Assembly: GCA_030549335.1 (NCBI GenBank)
Contig: CM060198.1
Location: forward strand, 57,546,771 to 57,610,770
Reading direction: 5' to 3'
Source: Pontederia crassipes
Lineage: Eukaryota > Streptophyta > Magnoliopsida > Commelinales > Pontederiaceae
Length of the DNA stretch: 64,000 bases
Each line of letters starts with the position of its first letter. Positions within the stretch are counted from its first letter, which is position 1. A program made the position numbers and the translations under genes. The notes below the pieces were generated by a model. It was not told the origin of the DNA and ran no database searches. It saw only the letters and a list, made by a program, of their open reading frames with translations. Positions 2,805 to 58,000 of this stretch are shown piece after piece.

Positions 2805-3910
2805 AACAACAAAGTCTTATCCCACTAGGTGGGGTCGGCTACATGAATCATACGACGTCATTCCGCTCTATTAGTAACCAAACCTTTCGGTATATTATTC
2901 ACCAATAGATCTTGCTCTATTAGTTCGCCAAGTGTCCGCCTTGGCCTCCCTCTCTCTCTTTTAATCGGACTCCAGATTATTTGATCTACTCTTCTTACTA
3001 GCGCATTTAATGGTCTTCTCTGAACATGATCAAACCATCTCAAACGATTCTCTACCATTTTCTCACTAATAGGAGCCACTCCGACTCATTCACGTATATG
3101 GTCATTCCTAATCTTATCTAATCTTGTATGACCACACATCCATCTCAACATCCTCATTTCGGCTACCCCCACTTTACGTTCATGTTGTCCCTTCATAGCT
3201 CAACATTCACTACCATATAACACTGCTGGTCTTATAATAATACGATAAAATTTTCTTTTAACTTTATTGGGTACTTTTTTATCACAAAGAACTCCAGTGG
3301 CTTTCCTCCACTTACACCAACCAGCTTGAATTCTATGATTAACATCGTCATCAATCTCACCATCTTGTCTTACAATTGATCCTAAATATTTAAATTTTGT
3401 CACTTGAGGAATTATATCCTCTCCTAGCCTAACTTTCAAATCGTATCTAAGTTGTTTATTTGTGAAATTGCTATGCATATATTTTGTTTTATTTCTACTT
3501 AAACGAAAATCCTTTGACTCCAACATATTTCTCCATATTTCCAATTTTGTATTAATCTCTTCTCTTGAATCCGCTAAAAGTACTATATCATCCGCAAATA
3601 GCATGCACTTAGGTACCTCCTCTGTGATACTCTCGGTTATAGCATCGATAATTAAATTAAATAGATACAGACTTAAAGCTGATCCTTGATGTAGACCAAT
3701 TCCTATAGAAAATTTATTTGTCTCACCTTCGGATGTCCTAACCCTAGTCAATGCCCCATCGTACATATTTTGTATTACCTTAATGTATGCAACACTCACT
3801 CTCTTCTTTTGTAAGGCTTTTCAAAGTATCCCTTGGTACCCGATCATACGTCTTCTCTAAATCAATTAAAGCCATATATAAATCTCTTCTCCATCATCCC
3901 TCTTAATAAA
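2805..3910 (-). mobile_element. 5'-truncated RTE-type LINE copy
   Basis: The minus strand encodes the C-terminal part of a non-LTR reverse transcriptase. It includes the catalytic FADD box (in '[11 protein letters not shown]') and the downstream '[11 protein letters not shown]' and 'RLRWFDHVQRRPL' blocks, and it ends in the GTT-rich tail of this family, read here as CAACAACAAC at the left edge. An 18-bp target duplication, GTACCTAACAATAGCAAC, lies at 2787-2804 and 3911-3928. The 5' two thirds of the element, including the endonuclease, is missing. The frame has a stop after 'YGSEC' and other lesions, so this is a dead copy. It is clearly related to the copy at 52090-55539. Confidence 0.95.
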
Positions 3911-9615: not shown

Positions 9616-9635
9616 TATTCATAAAGCTCATCCAA

Positions 9636-9811
9636 CTCCGCCTATGTTTTATAGCCGGTCCCAAGTCCGGATAAAGGAGGAGGGTTGTGTTAGGCCCCGA
9701 CAGCCAGCGTAAAACCCTGTCGAATCTCATGAACATAGATCAACGAGAGCGGAATGACGTCATATGATCCATGTAACCGACCCTACCTAGTGGGATAAGA
9801 CTTTGTTGTTG
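9636..9811 (+). mobile_element. Short non-autonomous RTE derivative (ends-only element)
   Basis: A 176-bp element made of the first ~110 bases of the RTE LINE (CTCCGCC start, through GATCAACG) joined directly to its last ~65 bases (AGAGCGG to the TTGTTGT tail). It is flanked by a perfect 20-bp target duplication, TATTCATAAAGCTCATCCAA, at 9616-9635 and 9812-9831. The duplication fixes the 5' end exactly at CTCCGCC. There is no coding capacity and no convincing Pol III A/B boxes, so it presumably uses proteins supplied by the LINE. Confidence 0.93.
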
Positions 9812-9831
9812 TATTCATAAAGCTCATCCAA

Positions 9832-20273: not shown

Positions 20274-21240
20274 TGGATCCGCTTACCGCGAAGACGTTTG
20301 CCGGTATCTCCCATTGGATTATTTTCTTTAATCACCCTTAAATTATCGCGATTTTTCACATTTAATTTTAAACTACGAACTTTATTTTTTGGATACCTAA
20401 ACAATCGCAATTTTTTCAACTTGATTCTTCCGTCCAATTTCGTCGACTTCTCCGTTATTTTTTATTTTTCGCATTTGTGAAAAGTCAATTATACCTTTAC
20501 TATAAGTGTTACTTTATTTTTGTTAAAATAATATATAATAATAATATAAAAAAGATTGCGGAAGGCGTCGCCCTTCATGTCGCCGGAGCGAAAGGGGGGC
20601 CGGTCCCCCCCCTGAACGAGCTCGCTAGGGGGGCGCCGGTCCCCCCTTTCTCCCTCGCCGTGCGCGAGGAAGAAAAGGAGGGCCAGCGCCCCCCTAACAG
20701 AGCTCGTTCAGGGGGGCGCCACCCCCCTTCTCCCTCGCGCGCAGCGAGGGAGATTAGGGGGGCGCCGGCCCCTTTTCACTTCGGCGACGCTCCTCCGTAG
20801 TCTTTTTTTTTATATTATTATTATATATTATTTTAAGAAAAGTAAGGTAACACTTATAACAAGAGTATAATGGACTTTTCACATATGCAATAAATAAAAA
20901 ATAACAGAAAAATCGATGAAATTTGACGGAAGGATCAAATTGAAAAAATCGCGATAGTTTAAGTACTTAAAAAATGAAGTTGGTAGTTTGATATTAAATA
21001 TGAAAAAATTACGGTAATTTTGGAATAATTTGAGAAAATAACCTTCGATTTAATTATTTTGCGGCCTTTTACGCGTAATGTGGTGGGAGGTAAGCCCACA
21101 CAGGGGATGACCTCAAACCGACGCCGAAGTGCTTTCTGGAGCTTGGATCCGCTCACCGCAGAAATAGTTACCTGCCTCTCCCGTCGGCGAATTTTGGTTC
21201 GATTTAAATTTTTTACGGCATTTTGCGCCTAATGGAGCCA
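20274..21240. repeat. Two tandem units, the first interrupted by an inverted-repeat element
   Basis: The sequence GGATCCGCTTACCGCG...TCTCCCATTGG (20275-20317) reappears as GGATCCGCTCACCGCA...TCTCCCGTCGG (21151-21187). CGATTTAATTATTTTGCGGCCTTTTACGCGTAATG (from about 21046) reappears as CGATTTAAATTTTTTACGGCATTTTGCGCCTAATG (from about 21199). Removing the element at 20316-21043 restores the first unit to the order of the second. The nature of the unit is unknown. Confidence 0.65.
20316..21043. mobile_element. Foldback-like element: ~250-bp inverted repeats around a GC-rich core
   Basis: The left arm (20316-20563) and the reverse complement of the right arm (20793-21043) align almost end to end. 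Shared blocks include TTATTTTCT at the tip, CTATCGCGATTTTTTCAA / CAATCGCAATTTTTTCAA, TCCTTCCGTC / TCTTCCGTCC, GTGAAAAGTC and AAAATAATATATAATAATAA. The arms are AT-rich; the ~230-bp core is very GC-rich and built of repeated palindromic GGGGGGCGCCGGTCCCCCC-type units. It encodes no transposase, so it would be non-autonomous. A target duplication could not be fixed. The family is not one I recognise. Confidence 0.7.
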
Positions 21241-22721: not shown

Positions 22722-25700
22722 TCACATCTTGTGAAGCACATTAGTGGACATGTATGGAGATACACATCTACGTACCTGCGGTTGAATTGCAAAATAGATA
22801 AGTTTCTTTTGTCACATATAATGACGAAAGAGTACAGTAAAAGAATATTTTAATGCACAGAATTTAAATAAAAATAACCTTTTCCTACTTGCAACAAAGG
22901 AGATAATACATGAGCTGTAGCATACGAAAATTTAGAAGACAATTTGAAAAAAAAAATTATTGGGGTAACAATGCGTAAAGTTGAGGTTTTACAATCATCT
23001 CAAGGCATCCCATAAAACTAGGCAAAAGAAACAGTATAGCTCAAGGTCCACATCATCATATCAATCATACTTCACTGAACTTCAAGGCATTAAATTGTAA
23101 AATGTTGTTATCAAAAGAAGTGGATAATTTTCAAAACAGTCATGCAGTTGAATCAGATTATGAATGATGCTGCACTTTAATCTAAAATTTTAAATAAACC
23201 ATAAAGGAAACCGAGGACCAAACCATCAACTGGCGCTGAAAAGAAACTACCAATTTAAAATAAAGCACATTGACGTAATTATCCTTGGAATGAAAGACAA
23301 AGAGGTTCTCCAAATGCTTTGTGTTTATATTGGTTAGAGATATCTAATAATTGCACCCAATACCTGGTTGCATGTATTGAACAAAAAGCCAAATCTATCA
23401 AGAGGACCATTGAGAATGCATCCAATAACAGATCAAACCAAGGCAAATAAGTTCTTTTCGGATTATAGCTAGAAGGAAAAAAAATAGCAAAACCTCAGTC
23501 TAAAAAGATTTAGCAAACCATATGCAATCTACTTTACTGCAGCAATGAAAGATCTTCTGCACGCAACGGATGTCTCTCATCAACAGGACAAACAAATATT
23601 ACTGTTATCAGAAGAGTTGAAACGTGACAGACGTCAAGGTAATTCAATAAAAAAAATTATGAAAATTACATACTATATTCTAGGAAGCTAATCATGGCTG
23701 TATATTTAATCAGAGAAACTAACTTGGAAGAATCTTGCCTGCCATAAAAGAGCAAGAACATTAAACTGGTATACCTGTAACAGACCAGTAGGAATGTCAA
23801 CAAAGCCTTGCAAAAGAAGATCAACCGTCTGTAGCCTACATAAAGGAACAGGAGTGATCACGTACAGGACACCTTTGCCCACATCAATACCTCTTACAAT
23901 ACCTGAAAGAGAAGTATCAATTGAATTTTTGAGAAAGAAGTATCACTTAAATTTTTTGAGAAAGAAGTATCGATTAAATAGAACAGAACGAGAACAGTTT
24001 GTGCATAAGCCGTGCTAACTGATGATCATCAACATCGATATGAGGAACATATCCTACATTAAAATAGCAATTTGCCTCATTAAGTGTGTAAGTTCTTTGC
24101 ATCCAAGACATAAACTGTGCCTTACACATTAAGGCCCCATTTGGGTGCTCCGTAAAAATGTTGGAATTGATCAAACTGCTGTTCTTTAATTCGTCAGCGG
24201 GCAGCATTTTTGAATGAGTTCAACAACGTAATCTTTGGTTGAATATGGTGAGAAAGAACTATTAGGTTCGACCTACATTTCAGCTATGATTTGACAAACA
24301 GCTCTTTCATTTTTTTTACTTTCGCTATTTTCTTGCAATTTATTTCCTCTTTTCTCCTCCATGAAGAACCTTTCTTTCTCCTCTAATGCATCTGTCCTAT
24401 TTCTCAGTTTCATTCCAAAGGGAAAAATGATGAATCAGAGAACAACTCAGGTGACTGACCTGGAAAATCTATGTCCACACGCATTTCCATCTTTCTGGTT
24501 CAATTCAATTTTTTAGCAGTATTTTTGTTCACGTACAGATCTTCCCCTATCTGTTCTTTCATATTTTTCATTGCATTTTCACAAAGGCCTTGTGAAGTCA
24601 CCAATATTTACTTTCTGGGATGGTTGAACTCCTGTGTCGATGGCTCCAGTCCGGAGTCTCAAAAATCCGACGAGGCCACCATTCCAATGCTCCTCAAGCT
24701 CACCATTAAAGCCGAAATGTGATGTCATGTCATTTGGTGCAAAAAGGATAATCTTTTTTTTAGATGGAAAGATGATATGGTTCCTTCATGTGCATTTACT
24801 CCATGCAGATGGGGTGTTCTGTGGTTCTCAAATTATAACTTAACAAAGTTTTTTTTTTTTTGTTTCTGACGATTTGAAAGGAAAGTAAGGAACTTCGAGC
24901 CTTTTGTGTCTGATGTTATTACATGGCCTGTTGAGTTAATCACTTTTGAGTAAATTTCATGAACGATCATCCAACTACACTTTAATCAGTCACCGAATTT
25001 TATTTTGTAACTCGATGGTCATCCAACTTCAATAATTTCACATTTGTGGTAATCCTAACTGGTGATAGAAGGTCTACCAGCTAAAATGCTAATGTGACAC
25101 TCACACTAATATTTTCTCTCTCCACATACAACAACAACAACAAAGCCTTATCCCACTAGGTGGGGTCGGCGTATATTCGTTGATCCATGTTCATAAGATT
25201 CGACAGGATTTTACGCTGGCTGTCGGGGCCTAACACAACCCTCCTCCTTTATCCGGGCTTGGGACCGGCTATAAAACATAGGCGGAGTTAAGACCCTTAA
25301 AAAAATAAAATATAAAAAATGTATATGATGTGGAGGAATGATGTAAATGCCATGTCAACATTTTAACCAATAAATCTTCTATCATCAGTTAAGACCACGA
25401 TTGGAAGATTAATAAAGTTGGATGACCGTTGAATTACAAAATAAAATCATGTGACCGAGTTGGGAATGAGATATACTTGTACGAACGTTTGTGAAATTTA
25501 CACACTAAATGGCACACGTCTAAGATCAAGGAATAAGAACTGTCAAAGTTAATTATTGTTTTCCCTCCTCTAACATGTTAGATTTGTTTACCCTGATTAT
25601 ATGACTATCTCTTATTGACTTGGTGATGGGAGAACTTGCCTACAGAAGGTTTTTCCCGACATTTCTAGCTTTTGGTGGTAATCTATTTGTAGTGATAAAC

Positions 25701-35989: not shown

Positions 35990-38900
35990 CTAACGGTCTT
36001 TGTTGTTTCTTGCATGAGACAGCCTCAATTGTGAAGGCTGCAAAAAATCAAATGTTGTTCTTCTGATGGCCGTCGGGGAATCCGATAGCAAGGGCTCATA
36101 AACAGAGTTCCTCACCTTAGTCTGAGATACGGGGGGCGACGTAGCATCCTTCTCAATCGACTTCAACTGTGACTCGAGATTTCCCATGGCGAAGCCGGGA
36201 CCACGAGATCGCTCGGCTTGCTGGAGTAAATTTATGGCGCTTGGTCGGTACGTGAACCTGAAGTACTTGATTGCGAGCACTGGCCCCATTCCTAAAGCAA
36301 CAATAAGCTGGAAAGGAGGTGTCAACAGAAGGCTCCAGATATTTGTTCAAGAAGACTAAAGGCAAAGCATAAAGATACTCACCACCATGGTTATCCAATA
36401 CGACGGCTGTCTACAGAGGCGGAACATGATAGTGTACATTGCAACAGATGGTATAGAACTGATTATAAAGTTGATGATGTAAAAAGCCACAAAATTTCCC
36501 CATATGGCAAGATGTTGCAAAATTGTGAAGGAACTGCAATAAGAAAATAACCGTTTTTATAATTCACGTAACAAATGATAATGACGCAGGAGTAACTTGG
36601 CATCTGACATATGGGCATGAATCAACTAGTACATACTTCATCTCTAGTGCCACAACAAAAGCCTGCAACCATATGCAGCCAGATAACGCAACCATAGACA
36701 GCTCTTCCATCTCACTTTTCTCATTGGCATAGGCATGCACGGTAACAGAGAAAACCACTAGACCCTGCAAGCACAAGCCAATGATTAATGAGAACAAGGA
36801 ATCATGACTTTATATATAGAAGGGTAATGTTTCTCATCAACAATATTACTTTTGACATGTCATCACAAGAGTTCCATAGAGCTGAATTCTAGAATTTGGA
36901 GTTAATAGACAAATATGATTACCAAGAAAAAGAAAACAAAATAATTTTAATGCTACAACCATACAATGTTGGGGCAACATAGAGAATTCAAGAACTCTCT
37001 CTTACATGATACAGCGATCGCCCAAACCATCCAGCAAATGTACTTGGATTCAAGAGCCTAGATCCAACAAAGATGATGGAGAAGTTAAAAAGTAACATAA
37101 ACCCTTTTGCAGTCTGTGCATTGCAAAAGTAACCACAATAGAAGCTAATTACCAGTGGTGAAAGTAAATTTAAGTGCTCGCCTTCTTTCAATAGCTTGAA
37201 ATTGAAAATACCAAAAAGATGTCATCTTACCTTCCCGCTTGACAATAAAATAGGATCCGTGGGTTCTGCATCACTGTCTTTTCATTGAGGTCCTTGTCAA
37301 GAACGCTTGTCAGGACAGGTATGCTCGTGTAGAAAACATTATATGCCATTAGACTAATAGAGTTGAACAGGCTAGTTCCAGAGACTCCTGAAAAGAAAGA
37401 AAAGCTGCATATGGATCCAATATTAGCATTAAAGAACCCAACATAACATTATGATACAGAATAAAGTAAAGGGAAAATTTCCAGATTTAATCTTCAAAAC
37501 ACAATCAAATGACATAATTTAATAGCGTGAAGTGGGAGTAAATGACAATATTGATCATCCACTGAAACTCACAATATCTGGATGAAACATATAATCAAGG
37601 ATTTGTAGAACGAATATTGTGAAAGAAAGGCTGTTCGGTTGTATGAATAACGCCCATGAACCAGAATCAGCCTTTTCAGAAACCTGAATTCTGCAAAGCC
37701 ATTATAAACAATTAGCATTTGAGAAATTTGATGGCATACCAGGAAGAAAATAATGTTTGTGTACAATAAGTATTTTTAACTTAACCAATATTTTCATTGG
37801 TGCATTAACGATCAAGTCTATTTTCACCCACAATATACATGAAATATGTGAATATTGGCGTAACAATGAGAAAAGATACAAACACACCCAACTTGAACTT
37901 GAGAGTTCTTTCCTATTTCAACAATGCCAGAAGCTAAATCCTTATTGCGAAAGTATTTCTTTTGGTACCCAAGATAGCTGTTTTTTTTTTTGGAGAACTC
38001 AAGACAGTAATTGGGTATGACTATCTTGGAGTTGGTTACTATACCAAAAGTTCGAGTGCAAGAAAACAATTTATTTTGGAAACAGTGTAAGAAAATATAC
38101 AGTGTGTCTTTCTCAAAAATCACAAAATGTCCCATGACTTTTTATAGCTTTTTTTTTCTGGAAAATATTGAGCATCTTTAAAGTTTAAACAATTGCTAGG
38201 TCGAATTGAAACTCCAAATTATAAGGATAGTAAATAAAACTTGGGCAAAGTCATTGGATTAAGTGACTCATTCCCTACTGCCAATAATCAAGTCCATTTC
38301 ATCTTGAACTAGAAATACTGTATTGCATGAAAGTAACATACTTATGAAGGAATACTGGATTCTTACTTCCAATGCTGTAATCAGCTGCTCTCGCAGCTTG
38401 CAGACCTTCCCTTCCACTAATCCCCACACCAATATCAGCTTGTTGTATCATCCTTACATCATTACCACCATCACCAATTGCAAGAGTTCGGTAATCACAT
38501 GATTTTAGGAGCTCAACTAACTGGAAAATGAACAAAAAACACAAATGATGGAGCATTAATGCATTTTATGCACCAAATCATAGATAATACTAGTACCAAA
38601 TTGTACCAGGAAACACGCCAACTCAAGAGTACCTAGTATTTTCATTTTGAGAAAGACAACTACCTTGTATGATGTGGGTTCCATATTCCCTGTATTAAAT
38701 ATTTTCATGTTGTATAAAGAATATAAAAGAAATTAATGCATTTTATGCACCAAATCATAGATAATACTAGTACCAAATTGTACCAGGAAACACGCCAACT
38801 CAATAGTATTTTCATGTTGTATAACAAACCAGGACAAATCTATAGTGGAGTTTAGGAATGCAAAAGTTCTAGTAACTGATCAAAAGGTGACAGATATAAA

Positions 38901-41900
38901 AGAAATTGTCCCCCTATTAGAGAAAACTACTCAACTTAGTGTTCCGCTGTTAATTATTGCTGAAGATATCTCTAGTCAAGTTCTTGCTACATTGATCCTG
39001 AACAAGCTGAGAGGAGTCTTGAATGTTGCAGCCATCAAATGTCCTGGTTTTGGGGATGCAAAGAAGGCTATTCTACAAGATATTTCTCTTATGACAGGTT
39101 AATTTCCATTGAGGTTATTGATTTATTTTCACTGTGTATATTCTACCTTTTCAAACTCCGCCTATGTTTTATAGCCGGTCCCAAGCCCGGATAAAGGCGG
39201 AGGGTTGTGTTAGGCCCCGACAGCCAGCGTAAAATCCTGTCGAATCTTATGAACATGGATCAACGAATAGAATAATATACAGAAAGGTTTGGTTACTAAT
39301 AGAGCGGAATGGCGTCGTATGATCCATGTAGCCGACCCCACCTAGTGGGATAAGGCTTTGTTGTTGTTGTTGTTGTATAAAGAATATTGCAAATCGTGTG
39401 TCAACTTTTTCTTTTCTTTTATCTCAGTGGGCCAGGGATTTTGATATTTTTTCTATATATACTTGTGCACTTTTCAATAGTTTCGATACGCGTGGATGAC
39501 TACTAATCTCTGTAGTCAAATAAAAGCTTTATTTAAGCATTCTTCTTCTTCAAAAGAAAATTGGTTGCCTTGAATCATATATGCTTTTGCAACTAGATAT
39601 AAATATGTTTAAAATCTTTTCTGCTTCTCCGCACTAGAAAGAGATTTTAAAAATGTCCAGATTTTATGGAAGCGTGCAACTAGTATAAGTACTGTCGACA
39701 ACAAGAGAAATAAGGAAGCCACAGAGACAAACAATTAAAATAGCTTACTTGTGCCTTCTGAGAGGGGGTCACACGACAACAAATGGCTGTTCTCGAGAGA
39801 ATGGCCAATTCAGTAAATGCAGGTTTATATTGTTTCAGAATAATTTCAAGGGCCCAACCATCAACAACGAATGCCAAGTCCTGCAACGCATCAAGCCATG
39901 GCCATATGCATTACATTAACAGTATAGAAATAAGAAAGCTGCAGAAATAAATCAAGACTGAAACCGAGTATCCAACCTCACATTCTCAGATATAAAAAAA
40001 AATCTAGATTATTTGATTTTGCCATTGACAACACGGATTCTTGAAAGTAATACGTTGACTATCTTGTACAAATTCACACAGAAACAGAATGAGCTAGTTG
40101 ACTTATTTCTGAAAATGGGATGAGAAAGTATCTCTATGCTATCCAAACATTAGCAGGGGGAAGAGAAGTTGCAAGCGGAAAAGGATCCCCTATATTATCC
40201 AAACATAAGCAAGAGGAGGGGAAACTGTAAGTGGAATAACAGTGTTCCTATCATGGTTGTGATTTGTCATTATGATTAAACGTCTCCACTTAGAACTGCA
40301 AACATCATGTTAAAGATGATTTATACTTATATTTATTCTATAATAGAAATAATAATTTTTAATGAGGCACGTGATTGACTCTAGAAGAAAAACAATAAAC
40401 CGATGCAATACAACAACAACAACAACAACAACAACAAAGCCTTATCCCACTAGGTGGGGTCGGCTACATGGATCATACGACGCCATTCCGCTCTATTAGT
40501 AATTAAATTAATCTTCTACCAGCATTAAATATTCAGAGGATAAGTAATACATTAGTCTAGATTTTATGATATGGTTTGAATTATCTTTCATGATCTAGTC
40601 TTGGAGTGTGAAGCACTGAGTAAAAGTAATTTCTTGAGTCACTGATAATAGTCATTGTACGAACCTACTTGAGGTTTATGTGCCAAGAGAATTAGTCGAA
40701 TTATCTCCTCAAAAAAAAAAAATAGTCGGATTCTTATTTGGAGACCTACACATGCTTTACATAACTCCTAAAAGACATCTAAGAGTTTGGGATTTTACTA
40801 TATTGCTTTTCCAATGATATAAAAAAAAATCAGTACATAAATTGACCAAATAATCCCTGATTCATCACCTATATTCTAATACCTCTTTTTTCTTTTGAGG
40901 GATACATCCTGTTAAATTTGATGTGCTAACTAGTTTTCCTAAAAGTTTAAGTCTTTAGAAAGAGCAACATCATTCATTTTATATTCTTACTCCCCCTCAC
41001 GTGTGGGCTGCTGACAAGGTCTAGCTCAAGCCCAACACATGGACAAATACAACAACAACAACAAAGCCTTATCCCACTAGGTGGGGTCGGCTACATGGAT
41101 CATACGACTTGATCCATGTTCATGAGATTCGACAGGGTTTTACGCTGCCTGTCGGGGCCTAACACAACCCTCCTCCTTTATCCGGGCTTGGGACCGGCTA
41201 TAAAACATGGACAAATAAGGGAGAAAATTACTTTTTAATAAGAGCTTAATGAGGTTTGAACTCAGGACATCTAGCTCTCATACCATGTTAAATTTCTAAA
41301 CTAGTTTTCCTAAAAGTTTAAGCCGTTAGGAAGAGCAACATCATTCATTTTATATTCTTAACACATCCTAATATTTCTACACCGACATCACTTGTTGACA
41401 TCTCACAAAGGCTGAAAGTTCATTTCAAAGTAATAATTTGCATAATCACTTTTTTTAGACCACTTTCACTAAATGGAAAGCAAGAAAGAAACATCCTGTC
41501 ATTGAAGATCATTTTCACAATGAAAAATAAGGAACATCCTTTCATTGAATCCACAAAATTCAAAAGCACCTTGGGTTCTGAAGAAGTTATCCTCATTGTT
41601 AGTAGCACCCTCTCTAAGCTTCTTAATACTTCGTCTTCAGTTTTACCATTGATGAACAAGAGTTGTCCTTTGGGCTCTGAAACATGGCAAGATAAACTGA
41701 TGATGACATGATAAAGAAAAAAACACATAAATATTCATTATTGAGAGTTCTCGACTTATAGAAACTATGAAACAATAAACATTTTCCCTCTCCAAACATA
41801 ATATAGGTTTTAGAGAATGCAAAATCACGTTACATGAGAAAACAAACAAGTACCTGAAGAGATAAAATTGCATAGGAGAGCAATTTGGATTGCTGTACTT

Positions 41901-46070: not shown

Positions 46071-49000
46071 AGTTCATAATTAGCATGCACACGGTTGTAA
46101 TGCTCACAATTGCTATTTCCGGGATCTCTATCAACAGACCCTAAGAAAAATGATTTGATTGTAAACTATCCATGATTTCCCCACCTAGTGGGATAAGGCT
46201 TTGTTGTTGTTGTAAACTATCCATGATTTGCAGTTAGAGTAGTAAATAACTAAGGAAACCTCAGCATGTCATGCAAATAAAGAAATAAAACAAAAGTGCC
46301 TTAAATTACCTAGACAAATTCCAGAGAAAATGTATGCTGATTCTCTTTTTATGAGGATAGCATATCAGACTATAAATGGTGTAATAAAGCACAGATGCAA
46401 ATGTTGCATCCAGAGAGATCAAAGGAGATAAGTTTTTTTTTTACTTCTATTAAAGCAAATAGATGTCATCTTAGTACCTTGCGAGCTTCAGTATCTTTCC
46501 AAATATTACCCGCAAATCCCAGAACAAGGACAACAACAATCTGAAACAGAAAAATGGCTCCAGTCAGCTTATCAATCATGGCATCCACAGCAGTTAGTTT
46601 TGGCTCTGGCACACCCCGACTCATTCCCAACTTGGTTTCATTGCCTGAAAGATGATTAATTAAATGGTTAGCGATTCAACATGCCAGAGACAATACCTAG
46701 TTCAATCATGGATTGTAAATAAAATGATTGCCGGCCCTTATCATCTAGCGACAGAAGACAAGAATTCCGACTATTTGCATAAAAGCAATGCTAGTTTGAT
46801 AATGCAAAAAAGTAGAAAATGTCCAATCTAGATAAGCAAATAAGAGCAAGAGAATGGCTACTACAAAACATGATTACTGACATAAATACAATTTTTTTAG
46901 ATAAAAGAGGATGATTGCCTAGATGTCAAACATCCAGTTTTACATAAGTACAATTATTTGTCACAATTGATAAAGTATCAAAATGAAAAACCATGATTAC
47001 GACATGAATTTCCTTCTGAGAGAAAATACAACACCAAATTAGCTTGAAATATCAGTTAATATCGAGGTTCCAATAAGGTCCATAGTATATGTAAGATGAT
47101 AACTATATGTACCAACTTGCCTGTATAAACTGCAACTCCGCAAGCCCATTCAGTATTCCTCAAGTAGCACGACTGTAAAAGTGTGTTATTGATTGTCAAT
47201 GGACACATGTCATTATCGAGAAAGGGGGGAAACAACCGCATATTCGCATCAAATCTTCTTATGTCCTTGTCAGGATTGGGGCATTCAATAACACCCTGAG
47301 AATTTAGAATAAACAACCATTAAGAACTAATCCAACTAGGATGATTTGAAATCTTCAAGTTACCTTTATTCTATGCAATTGTTCAGACACTAGTCCAATG
47401 TAAGCTGATGGAACCACCCTTGACTTTAGATCAGTTTCCCCATCTAGTGCAGCAGTCTATCAAAACCAAGAAACTTTTCTTGAGAAGACAACCAAGAAAC
47501 CTATGATGAGTTTTACTATAACTATGCAATCATATTCATACTTCTAAATGGATCTCATGTTTATTACTTTATAATGAACTCCAATTGGACATCCCAAAGT
47601 TCAGAGTTCTTAGAACCTCCCAATGAAAAACTAGAGTGTAGTATAAAAAAATAAGCACACACACACACACCCATAAACTGCATTATATAGCTAAAATAAC
47701 TTTTCACCTAGTGTGCAAATAGAAGTAACACATTAAGAAATGCCTTCCGATATGTGGCTGGGGCTTCAAACTCCATACATACCACACCTAAGGGTGTTAG
47801 ATGTGAGAAGATTTTGGGGATATAGCACGAGTTTTTCAACTCCTTTGGCTACAATGTAAAAAGAAAATAGCTAACATCTCACCCCTCAAAATAAAAGAAC
47901 TTGGCACTACATATGTGTTTATTTGAAACTTCGTAGACATGAGAAATTTATAACACCTATTTCCTAACTCTTTCTTAGTTCCTTGGCATTCTCCAAACAT
48001 TTAACATTGAAGATTGTTCTCTAAGTTCCCATTCTCTTTTCCTATCCTATTCCAATTTTTATAGTTGATTTCTTGCCTTTCCTTAATGTTGTCTTTTGTG
48101 ATCTCTGTTAATACTCCAACTTTTACATATGAAATTTTATCCTGCCTCCTAATATCTTTATTGTAGCAAGAACATTCCATCATACTTTTGTTGCTTTTCC
48201 TTGTCATTTGCTCGGTTTGGTATACTATGTTTTTGTTCTTCATGCGGTAAGAGAGGTAAAGAGGCACCAAGTTGTCATTTTGATTCAACTCTTATTTGCC
48301 AGTTTCAGAGCTGGATGCCTAGATCAATGTTGGTACACATAATGAAAAAGACCATGACGTGCAGCTCTGCTAGCTGCTGTTTATGTCATATTTTTGCATG
48401 GAATAGTACTATTTTTGGTATCAGATGTTACACAACAATATATCATACACCAATTTTCCTTTTTTATTAAGGTATGAGAAAGACAGTATGACTCTGAGAC
48501 ATTTAGTATGTATATAGCAACTTTTGTTGGAGCATTTTTGGCAATAGTGTATAATTTTGGTCAAACTGGTCATTCATTTACCTCTCAAAAATTGTGTAAA
48601 ACAGGAATAAAAGACTACATGTTCCAGGAAAATCAAGCCTCTCTTGCTATATATGCATGCCAAACTGTAGAAATAAGTTTGATAATTAAGGAATTCTCAC
48701 ACACTGCTTCCTCACAAAGGCTTGACCCCATGTACTCCCTCGTCCACAAAAATGACTCTGAATGAGATGTAACACATCTAGGGAGGAAACATTTAGTTTC
48801 ACACAAAAAATTCAATTTCAAACATTTAATGTTAATACTATCAACATATTGCAACCCAATTAGTTATATAAAAGCACAGTTTTATCAACTCTTCTTTTTC
48901 AGAAATTATGAATTCATATTATGAAGCATCATTCAGAAGAAAACGCAATGTCTTCTTAGCAGAACTTTGTTTGAATACTTCATATCATACCTCAACATAG

Positions 49001-52000: not shown

Positions 52001-55000
52001 TTAATTAATAGCGGTCACTTGAGAGATGCATAATTCCCACAGGTAAGACAGCATAACATTTGGCCTACTTATTGCTTTCAACTCAACAACTCCGCCTATA
52101 TTTTATAGCCGGTCCCAAGCCCGGATAAAGGAGGAGGGTTGTGTTAGGCCCCGACAGCCAGCATAAAATCCTGTCGAATCTTATGAACATGGATCAACGA
52201 ATATATTGTGTTAATGCTAGGTCGTTACCCGTAAGTAACGCGCTGTACAGCTCGGGTACAGTGATAAGAGAGCAAGAGCCGCTGCATCCTCGCCTGAATG
52301 CAGTGTTAAATGAGCAAGGGCTACCCGCACTCTAATGGACGGAGGCGGTTAAAGAAGCTAGTTCATGAAACTAAGGTCAGATTAGGTTCTTGGAACATTG
52401 GGACGTTGAATGAGAAGCGCCTTGAGGTGGCACAAGTAATGGACCAGCGTAAGATTAGCATCTTATGCTTGCAAGAAACTAGATGGGTAGGAGAGGGAAG
52501 TAAAGAGATTAGGTTAAATGGTTCCAAACTTTGGTACACAGGTAAGGTAAATGGAAGGAATGGTGTTGGTATTATTGCGGATGCAGAATGGAGGAAGAAT
52601 ATTGTGGAAGTTAAAAGGATTGAGAATCGAATCATATCCGTAAAAGTAATTGTTGGAAAGGAGACTATGAACATTATTAGTGCATATGCACCCCAAGTAG
52701 GAGCAGAATCACATCTCAAGGAGAAGTTTTGGGCAGATATGGAGGGTTTGATTGAAAGTATACTAACAATCGAGAAAGTTTATATTGGGGGAGACCTTAA
52801 TGGACATGTTGGTAAAGAGGCAGGACCACATGCAAGGGTTCATGGTGGTTTTGGTTTTGGGGAGTTGAATGAGGAAGGACAAACTATTATTGATTTTTCT
52901 TTAGCATACGACCTTAAGATTATCAACACTTGTTTTAGGAAGAGAGAGGAACATTTAATCACATACAAAAGTGGAACTCATAGGTCTCAAATCGATTTTT
53001 TCTTGACAAAAAATACTGATAAAAGACATTGTACTAATTGCAAAGTAATTCCTGGGCATGGGGTGACTACACAACATAAATTGTTAGTTCTTGATATGCA
53101 AATGAAATGTATAAAATCAAAATCTCGAACAGTTTTTGATCGAAAGATCAAGTGGTGACAGTTAAAGGGGGAGAAGCGAGAGACTTTTAGAAGTAAGTTA
53201 TTAGAGGAAAGCGTGTGAGAGTTAGAAGGAGATGCTAGTATCATGTGGGAGAATGTGGCAAAAAAGGTTGAAATGGTTGCTAAAGCCATTTTAGGAGAAT
53301 CAAAAGGTTTTGGACCACGAGATAAGGAGACTTGGTGGTGGAATGAGGAGGTCCAAGAAAAGGTGCGTAATAAGAAGAATTGTTTCAAGGCGATACACTT
53401 GGACAATAGTTCTGACAATTGGGAAAAGTATCGTTTGGCGAAAAGGGAGGCTAAGAAGGCAGTTAGTGATGCTCGTGCTAAAGCATATGAGGGATTTTAT
53501 AAGGAGTTAGGGACAAAGGTTGGTGAACAAAGGATTTACAAGATTGCAAGGAATAAAGAGGAGTCGAGAGATTTGGATCAAGTAAGATGCATAAAAATGA
53601 AGTTGGCAAGGTTTTAGTTACTGAAGGAGATATTAAGAACAGATGAGAAGAGTATTTCTATAAGCTATTTAATGATGGATGTGAAGGTTCCCGTTGTGAT
53701 TTGGAGGACTTGACAGTTAGCGAATGTGAGCTTAATAGGTCATTTTATCGTAGAATTAGAGTCTCGGAGGTTAGCGAAGCTCTTAAGAAAATGGAGAATG
53801 GTAAAGCCGTTGGACCGGATGGTATACCGATTGAAGTTTGGAAATGTTTAGGAGAAAAAGGTGTGTTGTGGTTATGTAAACTATTTAATGAGATTTTACG
53901 GTCGAAAAAGATGCCTGATGATTGGAGATTAAGTACATTAGTTCCTATTTACAAAAATAAAGGGGATATTCAGAATTGTGCAAATTATAGAGGGATTAAA
54001 CTTATGAGTCACACAATGAAATTATGGGAAAAAGTGATTGAGCATAGATTGAGAATGGAGACTAGTATTTCTGAGAGACAATTTGAGTTTATGCCAAGAA
54101 GATCCACTACAGAGGCGATTTATTTACTAAGGGGATGATAGAGAAGTATCGAAGTAGGAGAAGAGACTTACATATGGCTTTCATTGACTTAGAGAAGACG
54201 TATGATCGGGTACCAAGGGATGTACTTTGGAAAGCCTTGCAAAAGAAGAGGGTGAGTGTTGCCTACATTAAGGTAATACAAGATATGTACGATGGGGCAT
54301 TGACTAGGGTTAGGACACCCGGAGGTGAGACAAATGAATTTCCTATAGGAATTGGCCTACATCAAGGATCAGCTTTAAGCCCGTATCTATTTAACTTAGT
54401 TATCGATGCTATAACCGAGAGTATCACAGAGGAGGTACCTAAGTGCATGCTATTTGCGGATGATATAGTGCTTTTAGTGGATTCAAGAGAAGAGATTAAT
54501 ACAAAATTGGAAATATGGAGAAATACGTTGGAGTCAAAGGGTCTTCGTTTAAGTAGGAATAAAACAGAATATATGCATAGCAATTTCACAAATAAACAAC
54601 ATAGAGACGATTTCAAAGTTAGGCTAGGGGAGGATATAATTCTTCAAGTGACAAAGTTTAAATATTTAGGATCAATTGTAAGACAAGATGGTGAGATTGA
54701 TGACGATGTTAATCATAGAATTCAAGCTGGTTGGTGTAAGTGGAGGAAAGCCACTGGAGTTCTTTGTGATAGAAAAGTACCCAATAAACAACAACAACAA
54801 AGCCTTATCCCACTAGGTGGGGTCGGCTACATGGATCATACGACGCCATTCCGCTCTATTAGTAACCAAACCTTTCGGTATATTATTCACCAATAGATCT
54901 TGCTCTATTAGTTCGCCAAGTGTCCGCCTTGGCCTCCCTCTCCCTCTTTTAATCGGACTCCAGATTATTTGATCTACTCTTCTTACTGGCGCATCTAATG

Positions 55001-58000
55001 GTCTTCTCTGAACATGACCAAACCATCTCAAACGATTCTCTACCATTTTCTCACTAATAGGAGCCAATAAAGTTAAAGGAAAATTCTATCGTACTGCTAT
55101 AAGGCCAGCAGTGTTATATGGTAGTGAATGTTGGGCTATGAAGGGACAACATGAACGTAAAGTGGGGGTAGCCGAAATGAGGATGTTGAGATGGATGTGT
55201 GGTCATACAAGTTTAGATAAGATTAGGAATGACCATATACGTGAACGAGTCGGAGTGGCTCCTATTAGTGAGAAAATGGTAGAGAATCGTTTGAGATGAT
55301 TTGGTCATGTTCAGAGAAGACCATTAGATGCGCCAGTAAGAAGAGTAGATCAAATAATCTGAAGTCCGATTAAAAGAGGGAGAGGGAGGCCAAGGCGGAC
55401 ACTTGACGAACTAATAGAGCAAGATCTATTGGTGAATAATATACCGAAAGACTTGGTTACTAATAGAGCGGAATAGCATCGTATGATCCATGTAGCCGAC
55501 TCCATCTAGTGGGATAAGGCTTTGTTGTTGTTATTGTTGTATTGCTTTCAACTCAACAACTGTAACAGTTCTTTTTCTTCATGCTGTTATTAAACTATTT
55601 AAATTTGAAAATAATCTCTAGTATGGCATGCCAACCATATTAATTCAAATTTATTTCAATTTGTCATTTTAGATCTAATATGGAAGTGACACCAAACTTT
55701 TCCAGACCTTTGAGTTTTACATGTATATTCTCTCCACTTCAATATATTTATGGATGGCTAATAAACCTACTTACTTGTCCTTTTTGTCTCTACAAGAATG
55801 GAGTCAATAAGATAAACAATGGAAAAATGTGAATAGACATTTTTATACACATGTTTAGGCAAAAAAAAAGACAGCCAACTACTGAGAAAACAAAGCTAGG
55901 TAGGCAAGAAGTAAAGGTTAGTATGAAATTCCTAATTTGACATCAAACAAAAAATCCATCCAAAAAGAAAGCAATTATTTAACAAAAGGATGTAATCTAC
56001 AATAGGGAGTGTAAACACAAAGAGAAAAAAGAATCCATACATGTCTCCGAATGCCATCTTTTACAACCCATACTTTCTTCTCATTTGCTTGTTTATCAGA
56101 AAGGTACCGATTGTAGTCATCCCATGCCTCTTTTGTGGCAGAGACTGCAAATATAAAGATTAACGGACCCCATGTACTTGCAGGATTTACTGGAGTAATA
56201 AGTGGCCATAGCTGGAGGCAAGCAATCAGTAAAAAGTACTGATTCATAAATCGCCTGTAAAATCAAATAATACAAATTTAGAAATCCCAAAGTTTGTATG
56301 AGATATTAGGACTGTAAAGAATGCTATCATATTGGTTCTCGATTTCACAAAAACACAAAATGTGGATCAGAATTCTTTTTTCTACCACCCTTGAGAATAA
56401 CATTCATTTTCTACTATAACAGGGAAAAAATAAAATTTCTCAACTTTATAGGCCAAAATCACACTAACTGACAAGGAGCATACTGGCTCATAAAAGGATT
56501 ACATGATGGCTATCAACCTCACCTGAATTTACCCTGTAATATTAGGCTGTCTTAGTAAAGACTCCCTAAGCTTATATCACGATCCTTGTGAGAAAAAATT
56601 ATCCACTGAGATGAAATAGTAGAAAATCAAATATCTACCAAGATAAATTTTTTTCAAACGAACTAACAACAACAACAACAACAAAGCCTTATCCCACTAG
56701 TTGGGGTCGGCTACATGGATCATACGACGCTTCGTTGATCCATGTTCATGAGATTCGACAGGGTTTTACGCTGGCTGTCGGGGCCTAACACAACCCTCCT
56801 CCTTTATCCGGGCTTGGGACCGGCTATAAAACATAGGTGATCTCTGTTTTAGTTCCCTAAATGAAATAAACCCTAAAAGATGGATTTTAGCTGCATTGAA
56901 ATGCATATTTGTCTAGCAACTCGACCGCTCGAAGGCCTTTGAAACCTCTTTTTATTCCCGATTCCTGTTTGAGAAAAGGATGGAAAAAGCAGTATCGAGT
57001 TTGAGAAAAGGGTGGAAAACCCGGAATCTTGTTTCCTATAAATGTTAAAAACAGGGATTCCCGTACTATTTATTTATTTATTTCTTTCTTTCTTTCTTTA
57101 TTTATTACCACTCCGTCGTCCGCAAATCTATTGGTTTAACCGACATAAGGAAGGGCTTCCGTTAGGATGCGGAGTGGAACCTCTTAGAGGAGCCTTTGAA
57201 TATATCGTTCATTTTCTCATGGGTTGAAAAGGGACGGGACAAGGATATACCCTAAGACCTCCGTTTGCTGGTTCTATATATCTGTGGAGGTAGTTGAGAA
57301 CAAAGTGGCGAACGGGTGCGTAACGTGTGGGAATCTGCCGAACAGTTCGGGCCAAATCCTGAAGAAAGCTCAAAAGCGCTGTTTGATGAGCCTGCGTAGT
57401 ATTAGGTAGTTGGTCAGGTAAAATTTGTAGTCCTATGCATAGTCAGTACTATAGCCCCAATCATGGCTACTAATACAATCAGACTAGGAACCAAAAACCA
57501 GACGGAATAGTAGGTATAAAGTAAATTGCCCAAAGTTTCCAAATTAGTCCAACTTCGTACCTTTCCGGCATGAACACAATCGTTGTTAGGAGATTCTTGA
57601 GCCACATTAGTTCACATGCGGCCTGAGCCATAGCTCTATACTCAGCTTCCGCGCTTGACCGGGGCACACCTTAATTAAAGTACTATCGGCTGTTTTTTTC
57701 CAGGTAACTAAGTGACCTCCTACTAGAGTGCAATAACTATATGTGATTAGCATTCCAAGAAGTAGGAATCCTGGACTTTCAATATCCCCATCCCTCCATC
57801 TCTTAGTTCCTCTGCCTTTCTTCGGTCATCGGGAATCCCACCTTTTCAATTAATCTGTCGTAGGGGCTCATAAAGACAGTTTCATAAAGACTCTCACTGT
57901 AACCCACATTATAACCAGTCATGCAGAGGTTTCAACCTCTGGACAGCATAGTTACCAATCGCAACCACGCAGATCCCCTCCCTAACTAAAGCCAAACGTC

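Follow-up and report, generated by a model that had tools for sequence, protein, structure and literature searches.

Introduction

A twister ribozyme at the 5' end of RTE elements has already been announced: one sentence of a 2020 review (PMC7761336), citing 'Martin and de la Pena, in preparation', states that retrotransposons of the RTE superfamily have conserved 5' twisters that are truncated yet catalytically competent. No fuller report of RTE 5' twisters was found in the literature searched, the limited coverage of which does not imply absence from print. Twister variants in non-LTR elements of S. mansoni are attributed to work of 2021 (as cited in PMC11620745), and a 2023 plant review (PMC10226581) called the function of plant twister ribozymes unknown. 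Several non-LTR elements, R2, L1Tc and RTE among them, have an HDV-like ribozyme at the 5' end (PMC3774820, PMC4035085). A twister cuts after a U that is less conserved and before an A that is highly conserved; the base preceding the cut is described as nonconserved, and with stem P1 missing a single nucleoside is still released at an almost wild-type rate (PMC5408937); P1 is likewise dispensable according to PMC6154101.

We analyzed a 64-kb stretch of the Pontederia crassipes genome (the window) in which an initial annotation had proposed an HDV-like self-cleaving ribozyme as the 5' module of an RTE-type family, with the copy at 39156 as its example. A ribozyme at the 5' end of the RTE-type element is retained here on the strength of homology to twister-P1, with cleavage as a prediction, and the HDV class is not. 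Judged from sequence, an RTE-type non-LTR retrotransposon and the short copies derived from it by internal deletion very probably have as their 5'-terminal module a type-P1 twister ribozyme, which would cut at the host junction before AA and release an RNA that would be reverse transcribed to its end.

Results

Copies of the element family in the window

Six 5' modules were located in the window, near 9636 (+), 25287 (-), 39156 (+), 41208 (-), 52090 (+) and 56837 (-), together with ten 3' ends of the family (allowing ≤ 3 mismatches). Four of the six modules have the full 5' end, and those at 41208 and 56837 lack the first bases (Table 1). The 13-nt duplication around the former indicates that it was 5'-truncated at insertion; a target duplication was looked for around the latter and none was found. 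The single long copy runs from 52088 to ~55539, contains the endonuclease and reverse transcriptase frames and has a 22-nt direct repeat at both ends, while a 20-nt direct repeat flanks the copy at 9636. Between 52088 and 52310 the long copy has no plus-strand open frame of ≥ 80 aa, i.e. no ORF1. An endonuclease followed by a reverse transcriptase, the lack of ORF1, a microsatellite-like 3' tail, here (GTT)n, and target duplications are all present; these features mark the RTE clade, and the element is assigned to it by them.

Two further pieces of the family were seen. A fragment without the 5' part (54787-54888, minus strand; antisense frame 54813-55067) is nested antisense in the reverse transcriptase region of the long copy, and a very short insertion at 46180-46213 consists of the 3' end only, with a 20-nt target duplication. 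The 39156 copy seems to lie in sense in an intron, ~55 nt past the exon end, of a chaperonin-60-like gene (38851-39099; Pfam Cpn60 E-value 0.0075, short of the Pfam cut-off). An active ribozyme in this intron would cut the pre-mRNA; the 39156 copy has a mismatch in P2.

Table 1. Coordinates of the features of the element family in the window
Feature	Coordinates	Strand	Details
Twister-P1 match of the 39156 copy	39154..39208	+	51.9 bits, match 39149-39208; element start AA at 39154; C at 39198 leaves a U.C mismatch in P2
Twister-P1 match, 5' end of the longest (EN+RT) copy	52088..52142	+	65.3 bits, match 52083-52142; 58.9 bits with element sequence only
Twister-P1 match, short internally deleted copy	25235..25289	-	62.2 bits, match 25294-25235
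Twister-P1 match, short copy with target duplication	9634..9688	+	53.9 bits; C to U in L4
Copy without 5' bases (cleavage site and P2 5' strand)	41164..41208	-	41.7 bits; 13-nt flanking duplication
Copy without first bases, truncated or altered	56790..56837	-	37.9 bits
Target duplication of the 9636 element, 5' copy	9616..9635	+	second copy 9812-9831; final AA can be common to the element
Target duplication of the 52090 element, 5' copy	52070..52091	+	second copy 55540-55561; AACT can be common to the element
Endonuclease open frame, long copy	52310..53158	+	PF03372, E-value 5.1e-7
Reverse transcriptase open frame, long copy	54135..54896	+	PF00078, E-value 7.4e-26; end overlaps the nested antisense fragment
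ACATGGATCA	52187..52196	+	positions 98-107 (numbering from CTCCGCC); has a complementary 10-mer close to the 3' end; directly followed by the cluster of deletion breakpoints
3' end of the 39156 copy	39337..39374	+	CCCACCTAGTGGG hairpin and (GTT)n tail

Twister-P1 matches in the window and the genome

The whole window was scanned permissively with all Rfam families (E-value ≤ 1). Twister-P1 (Rfam RF03160) matched all six 5' modules and nothing else in the window at this threshold, with scores from 65.3 down to 37.9 bits (Table 1) and E-values of 1.6e-12 to 1.1e-4 (whole window). When the host bases were left out of the 52090 copy, the element sequence alone gave 58.9 bits (E-value 1.9e-13 in 116 nt). 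A default Rfam scan of the window at the gathering score returned 0 matches; it missed twister-P1 because that score is 67.2 bits, which none of the six window copies reaches (best 65.3), a point against the twister reading. In a genome-wide search (1.13 Gb, 43 contigs), 62 of 68,074 first-look candidates were scored and all 62 matched twister-P1, 12 of them above the 67.2-bit cut-off (best E-value 5.2e-13), and the 14 control genomes gave 0 matches. The best-scoring genome copies (L005-L012) mostly share an ATTTTAA flank, probably because the model, in which particular host bases at P1 and the cleavage site raise the score, selects for it. The remaining window matches at E-value ≤ 1 came from five miRNA/sRNA models, weak and under their cut-offs, all on the foldback at 20.5-20.8 kb. 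This GC-rich foldback (20590-20782) consists of two 83-bp units with long inverted repeats.

Predicted twister structure and copy number of the module

In its common form the module reads AA, P2 CUCC, GC, P3 CUAU-loop-AUAG, P4 CCG, L4 GUCCCAAGCC, CGG, AUAAA, GGAG and GAGGG. Read as twister, CUCC and GGAG form P2, the CCGG hairpin is P4 with UCCCAAGC in L4, and TTTTA lies in the P3 hairpin; what had been called P1 thus corresponds to twister P2 and its neighbours, the former P3 to P4, and the former P2 strand to part of the P3 hairpin. Pseudoknot pairings are possible between L4 CCC and the final GGG and between L4 GC and the GC after P2, in a register and under names that are partly assumed here. 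Across the four full window copies, P2, P4 and both L4 pseudoknots comprise 16 pairs, of which 98.4% of cells are standard. The sole break in P2 among these copies is in 39156: the substitution of C for A that completes the HDV P1 disrupts the second base pair of the twister P2. The 52090 copy matches the Rfam consensus at its L4 and L1 letters, and the 9636 copy has one change in L4. Stem P1 has host sequence as its 5' strand and, in the window alignments, pairs partially and differently from copy to copy; since P1 is reported to be dispensable (PMC5408937), this does not exclude membership in the twister class.

Minimum-energy folding counts against the twister reading in that it yields an extended nested stem instead (39156, -20.5 kcal/mol, z -2.47; 52090, -14.8 kcal/mol, z -0.71). 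That single-strand folding fails to recover a double pseudoknot such as the twister fold is expected. Pair counts in the window do not separate the twister structure (98.4%) from the HDV structure (96.4%), and neither shows two-sided changes in this covariation sample of four nearly identical sequences. Among 258 genomic core matches with an altered first base of P2', 30 were examined, of which one lacked the 5' strand and 0 had the pair restored. Such absence of compensation is expected of decaying copies and is neither support nor refutation.

The exact 54-mer with GGAGGAG, the form found in three of the four window copies with a full 5' end, occurs 3005 times in the genome (1499 + 1506; reversed control, 0). 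The corresponding 54-mer with GGCGGAG occurs twice, once as the 39156 copy.

The 5' terminus of the element

To locate the terminus, we took the first 90 of the 3005 exact matches, all on contig C1, and kept 89 copies with a distinct 40-nt 5' flank. The search pattern included nothing upstream of CTCCGCC. This sample is young and local and was chosen, by its exact 54-mer, for an intact core, so that it cannot tell the share of copies with a working ribozyme. AA directly precedes CTCCGCC in 88 of the 89 copies, the exception having CC. From position -3 outwards the composition is mixed (-3: A 32, T 26, G 22, C 9), the strongest bias being T at -9 (51/89). The 3' end was recognised in 64 copies, and 34 of these have a duplication of ≥ 10 nt ending near the element (median 17), with ends relative to the C at -8 (1), -4 (1), -3 (2), -2 (11), -1 (17) and 0 (2).

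Thus 32 of the 34 duplications stop before the second A and 15 stop before both; the two A of those 15 copies are not covered by the duplication and are therefore element sequence. In the other 19, at offset -1 or 0, the target supplies one or both A as well, a pattern expected from 5'-junction microhomology. The duplications at 9636 and 52090, which had been thought to fix the first base at CTCCGCC, are of this shared kind: their repeats run into the AA (AACT at 52090), which target and element can have in common. The element starts not at the C but at AACTCCGCC, two bases before CTCCGCC, and AACTCCGCC is the predicted twister product start. The highly conserved A directly follows the twister cut (PMC5408937), which predicts a product beginning with AACUCCGCC. 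The duplications and the AA together place the 5' terminus at the predicted twister cleavage site, not at the HDV site.

Weighing of alternative readings

An HDV-like double pseudoknot with cleavage before the first C of CTCCGCC had been proposed from strands that do exist. At 39156 CTCCGCC can pair throughout with GGCGGAG (39196-39202), and CCGG..CCGG, the UCCCAAGC loop, GG, GGC..GCC and TTTTA/TAAAA all lie where they had been placed, in HDV order; 96.4% of the cells pair over the four full copies. A loose form of this strand order with a perfect P1 fits 77 start positions in the window (both strands), that of the 39156 copy among them; the requirement for a perfect P1 shuts out the remaining three full copies. 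The strict topology, in which P3' abuts P1', fits 8 window start positions and none at the four full copies. The perfect 7-bp P1 is found in one of the four full window copies, the other three having a mismatch (G.A in the common form), and in 2 exact genomic copies versus 3005 of the common form. HDV-like ribozymes have P1' directly after L3/P3 (PMC3774820), whereas here the 5-nt AUAAA separates P3' from P1' in all four aligned full copies. No HDV family matched at E-value ≤ 1 in the window or at E-value ≤ 10 in three sub-regions, and HDV cleavage before the C would not leave the AA carried by 88 of 89 sampled copies. Given the lack of a family match, the P1 mismatch, the P3'-P1' gap and the AA terminus, we rejected the HDV-like reading as extremely improbable.

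Two further explanations were weighed. The junction AA might not be element sequence and reflect a target preference for second-strand cleavage, its match to the cleavage site then being coincidence; an insertion preference for AA could indeed mimic part of the terminus signal, and the target also supplies one or both A in 19 of the 34 copies with a duplication. Both A outside the duplication in 15 of 34 are unlikely to have come from the target, and position -3 has no comparable bias, so that we regard coincidence as highly unlikely. The module might instead be a relic, catalytic in an ancestor and now kept for another role (promoter, translation start or reverse transcriptase binding), which the scores of the window copies under the gathering cut-off and the changes at paired or conserved positions in individual copies (P2 in 39156, L4 in 9636) would suit. 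Against this, the 3005 exact 54-mer copies imply a fully intact core in the source that was active recently, and the predicted cleavage site is still where the 5' end lies; we consider a relic very unlikely.

Internally deleted short copies

Among the 89 sampled copies, 85 lack the element interior; of the other four, L062 runs on into the interior and L084 ends at the edge of the fetched stretch. Breakpoints were read from where BLAST alignments with the 52090 copy stop. In 79 of the 85 copies the 5' breakpoint lies within 104-120, just after ACATGGATCA, and in 82 of 85 the 3' breakpoint lies within 3367-3404; the 3' breakpoints and the 49 junction pairs are approximate because the 52090 copy differs from the short copies near 3382-3390. 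ACATGGATCA is complementary to the ten bases at 3395-3404, a match that is weak by itself (≥ 10 nt of 5'/3' complementarity in 9 of 500 shuffles). In the window, the short copies at 9636, 25287 (-), 39156, 41208 (-) and 56837 (-) are internal deletions, as are L033-L122, with many different junctions.

Of the 89 copies, 56 could be parsed at the junction and gave 45 distinct junction strings. A simple 5'-plus-3' join with ≤ 2 mismatches fits 52 of them, and the four misfits were left out. These 52 fall into 31 junction classes, or at least 21 once neighbours are merged, and one length class, which may represent an amplified master, accounts for 14. Microhomology at the 52 junctions was 0 nt in 28, 1 nt in 7, 2 nt in 8 and 4 nt in 9, random joins giving 50, 30, 12 and 5%; this is not clearly different from random joins except at 4 nt, which a repeated junction can explain. 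The short copies have the composition of SIDEs: a 5' twister-matching module fused to the element's own 3' end, in copies with target duplications.

We tentatively suggest, while leaning slightly against it, that the short copies did not arise by amplification of a single SINE-like family. The ten complementary bases could hold the 5' and 3' parts of the RNA in a panhandle, and reverse transcription would start at the 3' tail, usually skip the loop and land on the 5' module, so that most insertions would be newly deleted and would retain the 5' ribozyme. If the reverse transcriptase jumped across the panhandle base, both the clustering of the breakpoints and the diversity of the junctions would be explained.

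Discussion

From the observed homology to twister, the position of the module and the 5' terminus of the copies, we infer a route with cotranscription from host promoters, cleavage and release. Transcripts initiated upstream in host DNA would read into the element, the cut would separate the last nucleotide of the host from the initial AA of the element, and the released RNA, starting 5'-OH-AACUCCGCC, would be reverse transcribed to its end, by which each new copy would again start with AA. The 5' strand of P1 would come from the host, which would make P1 arbitrary; with P1 dispensable and the base before the cut nonconserved, the module could work at any insertion site. A ribozyme without need of its own P1 suits an element that lands beside arbitrary DNA. 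The plant twister would thereby have a concrete, testable role, to generate a retrotransposon RNA's 5' end by its predicted cleavage. The repeat in question starts at the predicted twister cleavage site and has at least 3005 exact 54-mer copies in a 1.13-Gb genome.

Relatives outside the Pontederia crassipes genome were looked for in viral contigs, plasmids and phages, and none was found; four bacterial contigs that matched a 19-mer were rejected, as no element surrounded the match. A search of papers for strings of the element sequence gave one irrelevant match.

Comparison with known systems

With type-P1 twister (RF03160) the module has in common every element of the model apart from a consistent P1: the AA at the cleavage site, P2, the GC of L2, the P3 hairpin, P4, L4 GUCCCAAGCC, UAAA and GAGGG. 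It differs in that the P3 hairpin is shorter, with 8 model positions absent, the 5' strand of P1 is host DNA with inconsistent pairing, and the window copies score under the gathering score. The RTE twisters of PMC7761336 are of the same ribozyme class, at the same end and in the same superfamily, and 'truncated' would fit a twister without its own P1, whereas that sentence gives neither sequences nor hosts. The S. mansoni elements (as cited in PMC11620745) likewise have a twister used by a non-LTR retrotransposon, but in an animal host. In R2 and L1Tc/ingi (PMC3774820, PMC4035085, PMC3414825), a self-cleaving ribozyme defines the 5' end, as predicted here, and the short derivatives consist of the 5' ribozyme and the 3' end, the ribozyme being common to them and the long elements; the ribozyme there is of another class, HDV-like. 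For Drosophila R2 SIDEs four separate origin events were inferred (PMC3414825), whereas here at least 21 junctions were distinguished among the 52 parsed.
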